This document shows, in pieces, positions 12,045 through 14,651 of a DNA stretch of 64,000 bases. Source of the stretch: Arcanobacterium phocae (lineage in GTDB: Bacteria; Actinomycetota; Actinomycetes; Actinomycetales; Actinomycetaceae); NCBI RefSeq assembly GCF_900105865.1, contig NZ_LT629804.1, positions 1,922,001 to 1,986,000 of the forward strand, written 5' to 3'. The notes below the pieces were generated by a model. That model made no database searches, was not told the DNA's origin, and worked only from the letters and a program-made list of their open reading frames with translations. Numbering within the stretch: position 1 is the first letter of the stretch; each line of letters starts with the position of its first letter. A program made the translations under genes and the position numbers.

Positions 12045-12196
12045 GAGTCCAACCGCTCCTTTCATCTACGATCATGATGCTTGGTTATCCAAGCAGACAA
12101 GCAATAACTTTAGCACGCTCAGCCGATAAACAGCAGTCCACACTGTCTATTTGTGCGCAGAACCACTGGCTCTATTGCTTGATACACTTGGATGCG

Positions 12197-12850
12197 ATGA
12201 CTACCTTACACCGTTTACCCGTCGGTACCGAATTACGCTCCGAAATTGAGATCAAACGTTCCCGCTTTATCACGCTGATTCGCCGTGTTGAAACAGCAGA
12301 ACAAGCCCGTGGCTTGCTTGCCGATGCGCGCGCTGAGTTTCCTGACGCACGGCATCATTGCAGTGCTTATATTGTCTCAGTTCCGGACGCCCAACCGATA
12401 CACCATTCGTCCGACGACGGCGAGCCTTCCGGAACTGCCGGTCGCCCGATGCTCGACGTATTAATTGGATCCCAATTAACTGATATTGCAGCGGTAGTTG
12501 TACGGTATTTCGGCGGAACGCTTCTTGGCACTGGCGGACTAGTACGAGCCTATTCTGATTCGGTGAAATCTGGCCTTGCGGGAGCTCCCCTGGTTTCCCC
12601 TGTCTCGCGGGCTCTCTACACCGTAACGTTGCCGCATACTAGCGCTGGAAAGTTCGAAGCAGACGTACGTGCCCGCGGCTACGCCGTCGTTAATACTGAA
12701 TATGGCGCCGCTGGAGTTACTTTCCAGGTGGCAGTTGACGACGGCGAGACGTTCGCGGTGCTTATTTCAGAGTTCACTCGAGGTCAAGTTCAACCGGAGT
12801 TTTCTGGCCGCATAGTTACCGACGAACCAGCGGGACATATGTCACTTTAG
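12197..12850 (+). CDS. YigZ/IMPACT family protein
   Basis: A 217-residue protein of the usual YigZ length. The N-terminal IMPACT domain shows SRFITLIRRVETAEQARGLL, SDDGEPSGTAGRPMLDVL and VVVRYFGGTLLGTGGLVRAY, all hallmark motifs. The C-terminal DUF1949-like domain is at about 135-210. The exact bacterial role is unclear; the eukaryotic relative regulates the Gcn2 stress kinase. Start 12197 is chosen on homology; the frame is open further upstream but without family sequence, and no strong ribosome site is present. Confidence 0.88.
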   Translation: MTTLHRLPVGTELRSEIEIKRSRFITLIRRVETAEQARGLLADARAEFPDARHHCSAYIVSVPDAQPIHHSSDDGEPSGTAGRPMLDVLIGSQLTDIAAVVVRYFGGTLLGTGGLVRAYSDSVKSGLAGAPLVSPVSRALYTVTLPHTSAGKFEADVRARGYAVVNTEYGAAGVTFQVAVDDGETFAVLISEFTRGQVQPEFSGRIVTDEPAGHMSL

Positions 12851-12947
12851 CCATGCTCACGGCGAACAGCAGATCAGCTAGTTGGCATCAACCCCAGCTT
12901 CGCCGTACACTGGAGATGTTTATTTTTCAATAATGATGCTGAGGCGG

Positions 12948-12953
12948 AAGGAG
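12948..12953 (+). promoter_or_regulatory. Strong ribosome site of the Cys leader peptide
   Basis: AAGGAG with 7-base spacing to the ATG at 12961, one of the best ribosome sites in the window, placed in front of a 21-codon frame. It argues that the short frame is really translated. Confidence 0.75.
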
Positions 12954-12960
12954 AACACAA

Positions 12961-13026
12961 ATGACCATGTTCGTTTCACTCTTCACCGCATGTCATTGCA
13001 CCTGTCTACAGGGCGTCAAGCTTTAG
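12961..13026 (+). CDS. Cysteine-rich leader peptide of the cysK-cysE operon (putative attenuator)
   Basis: A 21-residue frame with a strong AAGGAG site. Its middle is TACHCTCLQG, three cysteine codons within five (TGT CAT TGC ACC TGT), and it stops at TAG, 69 bases before the cysteine synthase ATG. Cysteine is normally one of the rarest residues, so this density directly before a cysteine-biosynthesis gene is meaningful. By analogy with Cys-codon leader ORFs controlling mycobacterial cysteine genes, ribosome stalling when Cys-tRNA is scarce would change mRNA folding and raise cysK translation. A CCTGT-CT-ACAGG hairpin starts at the last Cys codons. Mechanism inferred. Confidence 0.7.
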   Translation: MTMFVSLFTACHCTCLQGVKL

Positions 13027-13095
13027 TTGTGTACCTGCGTACATGCTTGGCGCTCGAAAGTATGAAACGTAAATTTTAACTAGATAGGAAGCCTC

Positions 13096-14022
13096 ATGCT
13101 CTATAGCAATGCAACTGAACTTATTGGAAACACCCCGCTGGTACGCATCAATCACCTTACGGGAACCAACGCAACCGTCGCTGCAAAGCTCGAATATTTT
13201 AATCCAGCAAACTCAGTCAAAGATCGTATTGCTGTTGCTATCATTGACGCCGCAGAAGCATCTGGTCAACTCAAGCCCGGTGGCACAATCATCGAAGCGA
13301 CTTCTGGTAACACCGGAATCGGTCTAGCGTGGGTAGGTGCTTCCCGTGGCTACAACGTCATCTTAACTATGCCTGAATCGATGTCCAAAGAACGCCGGGT
13401 GCTACTACGTGGTTTCGGAGCCGAGCTTATTTTGACTCCTAAAGGTGACGGCATGCGTGGCGCCGTCGAAGCTGCAGACAAGCTCGTTGCCGAAACCCCC
13501 GGAGCTATCAAAGCATCCCAGTTTGCAAATGCTGCTAATCCGCAAAAGCATTACGAAACCACCGGTCCAGAAATCTGGAATGACCTCGATGGAAACGTCG
13601 ATATTTTTATTGCTGGCATTGGCACCGGCGGAACCATTACCGGCACCGGAAAGTATCTCAAAGAACGCAACCCTAATCTCAAGATCATTGCAGTCGAACC
13701 AAGCGAATCACCGCTGCTTTCCGAAGGTACTACTGGGCCGCACGGTATCCAAGGAATCGGAGCTAACTTTGTGCCGGATGTACTCGATACTCAGCTCTAT
13801 GACGAAGTACTCCCAGTCTCTACCGAGGACGCATTAGATTTCGCTCGGCGGGCGGCTCATGAAGAAGGGCTCTTGGTAGGTATTTCTTCCGGCGCTGCCC
13901 TAGCAGCTGCCGCAACCGTTGCTGCCCGTCCGGAAAATGCCGGTAAGACCATCGCGGTTATCATCCCTGATTTCGGCGAACGGTATATTTCAACGCCATT
14001 ATTCGCCGGTCTAGCAGACTGA
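13096..14022 (+). CDS. cysK: Cysteine synthase A (O-acetylserine sulfhydrylase)
   Basis: A 308-residue PLP enzyme that makes cysteine from O-acetylserine and sulfide. The PLP lysine is in NSVKDRIAV near residue 42, the substrate loop is [13 protein letters not shown] near 68, the phosphate cup is [17 protein letters not shown] near 175, and SSGAALAAA is near 265. AGGAAG precedes the ATG. It is followed 14 bases later by cysE, and the two enzymes normally form the cysteine synthase complex. The Cys-rich leader peptide upstream probably regulates it. Confidence 0.97.
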
Positions 14023-14036
14023 TTGGAAACCTACTG

Positions 14037-14618
14037 ATGCATGATCATCCGCCATTGTTTAAGCAAATGAAAGAAGATATGCAAGCTGTAATCAAACACG
14101 ATCCGGCAGCGCGTAATCTTCTCGAAGTGTTCCTAGCCTATCCGGGTGTTCATGCCGTGTGGGGTTACCGCATTGCCCACCGCATGTGGGGTCATAATTG
14201 GCTCAAAACACCAGCACGAATCTTCGCTCAAGGGGTCCGCACATTTACCGGGATCGAAATACATCCGGGTGCTGAACTTGGCCGCAGACTATTTATTGAT
14301 CACGGCATGGGCGTGGTTATTGGCGAAACTGCTGAGGTGGGCGACGACGTCGTTATCTTCCATGGAACCACGCTCGGCGGGGTCTCGATGTCCGAAGGCA
14401 AACGCCACCCCACCGTCGGTGATCGCGTGGTGATCGGGTCTGGCGCAAAAGTGCTCGGACCAATCACAATTGGAGACGATGTTGCTATCGGCGCAAATGC
14501 GGTGGTTGTTAAGGATGTTCCAGCCGGAAACACCGCCGTTGGAATCCCCGCAAAAAATCGGCCTGCCAAAGACAAAACAGAAACCGGTGAACAGCTCGAT
14601 CCGGCGATATGGATCTAG
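14037..14618 (+). CDS. cysE: Serine O-acetyltransferase
   Basis: A 193-residue short-form CysE that acetylates serine with acetyl-CoA. The C-terminal left-handed hexapeptide helix is clear: [43 protein letters not shown]; the active-site His is in FIDHGMG. The tail ends in the Ile (AIWI) expected to insert into the CysK active site in the cysteine synthase complex. Second gene of the operon, closed by a strong terminator. Confidence 0.96.
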
Positions 14619-14624
14619 GTACGT

Positions 14625-14651
14625 TAATGCCCCCGATTATCGGGGGCATTA
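14625..14651. terminator. Terminator of the cysK-cysE operon
   Basis: TAATGCCCCCGAT and its perfect complement around a one-base loop (in practice a 3-5 base loop), followed by CTCATTTTACTTTT. It sits between convergent cysE and rpiB and may serve both. Confidence 0.85.

Follow-up and report, generated by a model that had tools for sequence, protein, structure and literature searches.

What is the short cysteine-rich reading frame that lies directly before cysK in Arcanobacterium phocae, and how might it bear on the expression of this gene? The question arose from an initial annotation of a 64,000-nucleotide stretch of contig NZ_LT629804.1 (the window), which proposed amino-acid attenuation at the cysK ribosome site. 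Judged by sequence comparison and folding models, this proposal is the best-supported mechanism for the window, and we consider it probable that the 5' region of cysK(-cysE) is a cysteine-responsive translational attenuator.

The leader frame and its operon

The leader, the genes that follow it and the putative promoter are located as follows.

12882..12911, + strand: promoter-like sequence TTGGCA - 18 - TACACT (9/12 matches)
12917..12930, + strand: motif TGTTTATTTTTCAA, just 3' of the -10 (recurrence among relatives)
12948..12953, + strand: leader Shine-Dalgarno (SD) sequence AAGGAG (read from the sequence)
12961..13026, + strand: leader ORF, 21 codons, peptide MTMFVSLFTACHCTCLQGVKL* (read from the sequence; conserved before cysK in the family)
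12991..13005, + strand: Cys codons TGT (12991), TGC (12997) and TGT (13003) (sequence and leader comparison)
13086-13091, + strand: cysK SD sequence AGGAAG (sequence)
13096..14022, + strand: cysK, cysteine synthase A (TIGR01139, E 9.4e-131)
14037..14618, + strand: cysE, serine O-acetyltransferase, 14 nt after cysK (TIGR01172, E 1.6e-70)

The run TGT CAT TGC ACC TGT (12991-13005) belongs to a frame that starts with ATG at 12961 and stops with TAG at 13024-13026, 69 bases (13027-13095) before the cysK ATG (13096). The 21-codon frame, its AAGGAG site, the three Cys codons and the gap are all present where they had first been described. Among named CysK proteins, the nearest to that of the window comes from A. 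phocae, at 99% identity. The accompanying claim that such a run is far above chance did not hold up: the window contains 212 SD-led ORFs of 8-40 codons, exactly one of which has at least three Cys codons in five, and eight Markov-shuffled windows, each with 341-398 SD-led ORFs, yielded 0 to 6 (mean 1.9). The raw improbability of the run was therefore rejected as evidence; the leader is significant because of its place before cysK and its conservation, not its rarity in 64 kb.

A Cys leader directly precedes cysK in eight of nine genomes of the same genus, the exception being G003. A search of the family, Actinomycetaceae, located cysK in 194 of 200 genomes, and 70 of the upstream regions were read (nine of the genus, 21 further best-scoring search loci and 40 chosen for genus coverage). 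The predicted conservation of the Cys run was borne out, with the leader and a hairpin, P1 (see below), present in 56 of these 70 regions and absent from 14. By genus, 28 had both and six did not, among 34 examined of 36; some members lacked the leader in four of the 28 (g2, g10, g16 and g19) and in the window's own genus. The leader peptides differ widely in sequence and length, their end being kept (typically Cys-Leu or Cys-Arg before the stop), and 55 of the 56 have at least two Cys codons (median 3). By its sequence, the locus is a short leader with end-product codons ahead of a biosynthetic operon, which is what characterises amino-acid-responsive leader-peptide attenuators. The comparison indicates that the frame is real, and its translation is predicted from its SD sequence and start codon.

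The promoter search found one site, against 0.5 expected in shuffles, which is weak evidence taken alone; the predicted transcription start would lie at ~12918, about 43 nt before the leader ATG. The motif at 12917-12930 is the sole copy in the genome matching TGTTKATNTTTCAA without mismatch. Either TGTTTATTTTTCAA or TTGATNTTTCAA follows the -10 of the cysK promoter in seven of the nine genomes of the genus (not L008 and L009) and in members of one other genus (besides the window, loci L002-L007, L019, L020, L024 and L029), and this recurring sequence is possibly an operator or start-site element. At L005, the cysK locus of G003, the whole leader and P1 are absent and the motif is kept as TTTATTTTTCAA, 44 nt before cysK, so that this genome apparently carries a natural deletion of the leader and P1. 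An inverted repeat, AATGCCCCCG-ATTAT-CGGGGGCATT, lies 3' of cysE (14626-14650) and is likely to be the operon terminator. Upstream of the leader, on the same strand, is a gene of the YigZ/IMPACT family (12074-12850), with a score just below the curated cut-off of TIGR00257.

The hairpin P1 and the last cysteine codon

The most conserved part of the leader RNA is a hairpin, the 5' arm of which falls inside the leader frame.

13011..13021, + strand: P1 5' arm, GGGCGUCAAGC, within the leader ORF (fold and covariation)
13045..13055, + strand: P1 3' arm, GCUUGGCGCUC (fold and covariation)
13029..13044, + strand: P2 tip hairpin, GUGUAC-CUGC-GUACAU (fold and alignment)

In the window, P1 bears a 7-nt bulge and has P2 on top. 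The GTAC-CTGC-GTAC dyad noted initially is indeed present at 13031-13042, but it is just the P2 tip of the longer, conserved P1. The P1 arms read GGGCGUC/GACGCUC in one genus and AGGUGGC/GCCACCU, GGGUGCC/GGCACCC or GGGCGAAUGG/CCAUUCGCCC elsewhere. In an alignment of 35 family sequences, 93.2% of P1 cells were paired and double changes occurred in 7 of 11 pairs, with a covariation score that was reached by none of 500 shuffles; the number of double-change pairs in P1 and P2 together, a measure that is weak in this smaller alignment, was reached by 28 of 500. With 54 sequences from several families, 92.0% of cells were paired, the covariation score was again reached by none of 500 shuffles, and double changes were found in 10 of 11 P1 pairs (reached by 1 of 500).

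The register between codon and hairpin is fixed. In all 56 family leaders, the stem starts 8 nt from where the last Cys codon begins. In 41 of them the stop codon contributes its third base as the first of the stem; in 13, including that of the window, the frame continues and its stop lies 13 nt into the hairpin. The mean stem score was 21.4 at the fixed offset and 8.7 at other offsets, a test that is partly circular, because P1 positions were first picked by a script seeking the best hairpin near the Cys codons (seven were set by hand, nine were shifted by 1-2 bases and L044 was added by hand). For a divergent set, from which the near-duplicates L002, L023 and L031 were left out, the score was 18.7, versus 12.2 for a shuffled-loop control.

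The last Cys codon is UGU in all 86 distinct leaders compared, 56 of the family and 30 from outside it, eight of the latter having been found by a pattern requiring UGUC and 22 by a pattern requiring C or T after the codon. The other Cys codons of the same leaders comprise 39 UGU and 62 UGC in the family, and 23 UGU and 42 UGC outside it. The base after the last UGU is C in 48 of the 56 family leaders. An earlier outside set of 33 rows had included L136, L142 and L172, which their titles place in the window's family (L142 also repeats L067); the recount gave 30 rows, or 29 for spacers (without L161).

Searches with Rfam covariance models gave no match at 12900-13100 at the gathering threshold, and none over the element at seven loci with E up to 10 (T-box, riboswitches and others). 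On this comparative evidence, the element combines a conserved leader coding for cysteine with a structured RNA core absent from Rfam. Judged by ribosome footprint sizes, P1 would face the front (entry) edge of a ribosome that waits on the last Cys codon; we infer that P1 holds the waiting ribosome and shortens the path from the Cys codons to the cysK SD sequence.

Predicted pairing of the last cysteine codon region with the cysK ribosome site

The minimum-energy fold of the whole leader contains P1, P2 and a third helix, P0.

13001..13008, + strand: P0 5' strand, CCUGUCUA, over the last Cys codon (minimum-energy fold)
13081..13088, + strand: P0 3' strand, UAGAUAGG, over the cysK SD sequence (minimum-energy fold)

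P0 comprises 8 bp in the window, including one G-U, and 5 of 200 shuffles folded as well as the leader. Folding of 12940-13110, the check proposed at the outset, gave a positive result, with P0, P1 and P2 as the structures found. The dyad in the spacer had been suggested as the switch of the cysK ribosome site; this part of the proposal was not upheld, the candidate switching helix being that between the last Cys codon region and the SD sequence. The same fold also pairs 12935-12945, in the 5' UTR before the leader SD sequence, with 13091-13101, the region of the cysK start codon.

The strands of P0 vary among relatives and yet pair, as in L007 (CCUGUCUAU/AUAGACAGG), L006 (CCUGUCUGAGG/UCUCAGAUAGG), L053 (CUGUCGGUGG/CCACCGACAG) and L064 (CUGUCUGU/ACAGACAG), and further in L079, L034 and L059; these examples were anchored on a core consisting of UGU and the base before it, whereas the permutation test used no anchor. 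In 55 family sequences, pairing between the Cys region and the cysK start region scored 12.90, against 11.40 ± 0.31 when species were permuted (reached in 0/5000), and the result was the same (0/5000) for 46 dereplicated sequences. Control windows at -52..-22 and -82..-52 gave 1457/5000 and 3969/5000, so that, among the windows tested, the signal was confined to the start region. It was found for spacers shorter than 60 nt (0/3000, n=21) and of 60-85 nt (12/3000, n=19), and was absent from the 15 family sequences with spacers longer than 85 nt (1461/3000) and from 21 sequences outside the family (3035/5000). L045, in which no start was found, was left out of the P0, footprint and spacer tests, and L136, L142, L172 and L161 were left out of the 21 outside sequences. 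A leader region not expected to pair also gave a smaller excess (147/5000 in the family and 82/5000 outside), for which reason part of the P0 signal may reflect relatedness. The P0 score was in the top 5% against foreign start regions for 7 of the 55 family sequences, the window not being among them.

P0 as a universal feature is ruled out by the null results for long spacers and other families. Unlike P0, P1 is present in all members and must therefore have a role beyond supporting P0; its ancestral function was probably a different one, since P1 and the UGU codon are kept where P0 shows no signal; the preference for UGU likewise holds there. When the last Cys region was tested for pairing with the SD sequence of the leader itself, 51 sequences gave no signal (1740/5000). 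For the codons just before that region, the same 51 sequences gave 12/5000, with strong pairing in a few only: in L042, L027, L031 and L043, CU-rich codons before the last Cys codon can pair with the leader SD sequence, which suggests a second layer of control in some lineages.

Sequence comparison supports the leader, P1, the fixed register of P1 and, in short-spacer relatives, P0. The mechanism we propose presumes in addition that the leader is translated, that it responds to cysteine and that P1 acts on the ribosome. With charged tRNA-Cys plentiful, ribosomes would pass the three Cys codons and end at 13024-13026, after which CCUGUCUA (13001-13008) would pair with UAGAUAGG (13081-13088) and shut the cysK SD sequence. 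With cysteine short, a ribosome would wait on a Cys codon and cover CCUGUCUA, the SD sequence would be freed and cysK translated; P1 (13011-13055), at the front edge of the waiting ribosome, would hold it there and bring the Cys codons closer to the SD sequence.

Folding with a masked ribosome footprint was used to model these positions. In the window, the cysK SD region had an unpaired probability of 0.22 on the free RNA, 0.57 when the last Cys codon occupied the A site and 0.80 with the ribosome two codons before that codon; the value was 0.58 two codons past it, where this leader has no stop, and 0.24 both at the actual stop and early in the leader. The window model thus predicts an SD sequence that opens with the ribosome on or just past the Cys codons and recloses at the stop. 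Across 55 family members the modelled opening was small (0.456 to 0.528), exceeding 0.2 in ten, versus four for a ribosome early in the leader; this modest effect is consistent with the limitation of P0 to part of the family. With the ribosome two codons past the last Cys codon, the family mean was 0.524, as open as on the codon itself. As 41 of the 56 relatives stop at this point, a ribosome bound at the stop would open the SD sequence too, and in these relatives the model needs quick release.

Other possible outputs of the hairpin, distribution and known systems

The distribution of P0 leaves room for a broader reading, which we put forward tentatively and would sooner doubt than adopt: UGUC-NN-UA(G) and P1 would form one ancient ribosome-position module before cysK in Actinomycetales, wired to different outputs. 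P1 would lie at the mRNA entry of a ribosome that waits on an obligatory UGU codon; a short spacer would lead to Cys-codon/SD pairing, and a long C-rich spacer to a different, perhaps transcriptional or Rho-linked, output. If this is true, the use of UGU over UGC without known exception would mean that, beyond encoding Cys, this codon serves as an RNA motif or is deliberately slow.

Transcription attenuation, with P1 as terminator or antiterminator and the leader ribosome deciding on passage of the polymerase into cysK, is unlikely. It would account for P1 being the most conserved part, in a register to the last Cys codon that suits a structure sensed by a stalled ribosome, and for its retention where P0 shows no signal; at least five T in the 8 nt after P1 were found in four of the 56 family members, among them L040 (TTTTTTGC) and L073 (ATTTTTAC). 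A T-run does not, however, follow P1 in the window (GAAAGTAT) or in 52 of the 56, none of the 29 outside sequences has even four T in these 8 nt, and neither arm of P1 has a competing partner: permutation gave no signal for pairing of the 3' arm near cysK or of the 5' arm in the upstream leader (3968/5000 and 4583/5000 for the two arms). P1 was rejected as a general intrinsic terminator on the lack of a T-run in those 52 members. T-rich sequence adjoins P1 in L040, L073 and L066 (TTTTGC), for which reason it may be an intrinsic terminator in these lineages. In transcription attenuators of the trp type, a leader peptide carries codons for the product and an RNA structure reads the position of the ribosome. 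The present element resembles them in its product codons and in the proposed reading of ribosome position by RNA structure, but the window has no T-run terminator or competing hairpin.

Rho-dependent attenuation, in which ribosomes leaving at the leader stop would bare a C-rich spacer and Rho would end transcription before cysK, is very unlikely for this locus. Outside the family, the spacers are rich in C and poor in G (mean C 0.46, G 0.26; n=29, without an intergenic control), and Rho has been proposed for mycobacterial Cys leaders, in a prediction that its authors term weak (Seliverstov et al. 2005, PMC1262725); the window's own spacer of 40 nt after P1, with C 0.12 and G 0.20, makes a poor Rho site.

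It is highly improbable that P1 binds a ligand or protein in the manner of a riboswitch, the Cys codons being secondary. Unpaired bases are kept in part of the family (a UUUAG bulge, and UGUC before P1), and P1 is retained with a single Cys codon in Gordonia L129 and L138; against this, divergent genera keep UGU and the base of P1 but vary in the loop and P2 or have lost them, at least two Cys codons are present in 55 of 56 family leaders, and no Rfam match was found. In L129, L138, L173 and L179, all from Gordonia, the leader peptides resemble each other in amino-acid sequence, have the ending LTDHC[R/Q]* and contain one Cys codon only, UGU; the model matched P1 in L129 and L138 only, and in L173 a longer-range stem, GACCCGU/ACGGGUC, was seen by eye in place of P1. 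That the peptide acts in trans or binds metal, with the RNA features incidental, is scarcely credible: it contains CxCxC, but the peptides diverge apart from their Cys-rich end while the RNA hairpin covaries. Translational attenuation is, on sequence comparison and folding models, the most likely identity of the element in the window.

The family covariance model R1 found one site in the window's genome (E up to 10). Two candidates for a second element there were rejected, the only site added by model R2 (E 6.8) and an exact GGGCGTCAGGCTT at G000:264295, which sits in an unrelated terminator-like hairpin. In the order, R1 matched 68 of 297 genomes at E≤0.1, and nine of the ten loci read outside the family lie before cysK (not L102). 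Applied to named cysK loci (the 80 best of 541), R1 gave 33 matches at E≤1, of which 30 lie upstream of cysK and three (L182, L143 and L167) do not; these matches, with family judged by record titles, include Cellulomonas, Promicromonospora, Isoptericola, Sanguibacter, Actinotalea and Gordonia, the last reached through named loci only. In the class, R2 matched 5 of 394 genomes at E≤0.01, of which the window's own and G206, from the same order, are real and L192-L194 are chance matches. Nothing certain was found outside the order in these 394 genomes; this is weak evidence of absence, because only 13 candidates were scored per genome.

Canestrari et al. 2020 reportedly described mycobacterial attenuators formed by polycysteine leaderless short ORFs (sORFs). 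Such sORFs are presented as cysteine-responsive translation attenuators in the passages that cite them in PMC13236596, PMC9094748 and PMC9031893. The present element resembles them in having a run of Cys codons in a short ORF before sulfur or cysteine genes; those are leaderless, whereas this leader is led by AAGGAG, with a predicted 5' end ~43 nt upstream, and, compared with the sORFs as described by the citing papers, it stands before cysK(-cysE) in fixed register with a covarying hairpin. In the sections of Seliverstov et al. 2005 that concern these genes (PMC1262725), Cys-codon runs near the stop are described for leaders of cys operons in Mycobacterium and P. acnes and for that of cbs in B. 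longum; the Mycobacterium alignment is said there to contain no conserved hairpin fit as a terminator, and the mode of regulation is called unknown. Actinomyces naeslundii is in the genome list of that survey, and the passages of its Cysteine section cited here name no Actinomyces leader. The LEU element, in which leader Leu codons pair with the leuA SD sequence around an inner structure according to the corresponding part of the same survey (PMC1262725), shares with the present element the pairing of an end-product codon run with the SD sequence of a biosynthetic gene around an inner structure; it differs in its amino acid and gene (Leu and leuA, rather than Cys and cysK) and in having an inner pseudoknot or alternative hairpin rather than P1/P2. 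We have not assigned the element to either group, because it is SD-led, its gene is cysK and P1 is added. Among the papers listed by literature searches, none dealt with a leader element of cysK in Actinomycetales.

Covariation, together with the constant distance from codon to hairpin, qualifies the element for curation as an RNA family. How one sensor is coupled to different outputs could be tested directly by comparing species that have P0, species that lack it and the leaderless G003 of the same genus. The 2005 survey, in the passages cited here, placed Cys leaders in other lineages only and without a mechanism (PMC1262725); the present analysis puts forward a structure and a mechanism for cysteine control across a large actinobacterial group that includes the animal-associated Arcanobacterium and Trueperella.
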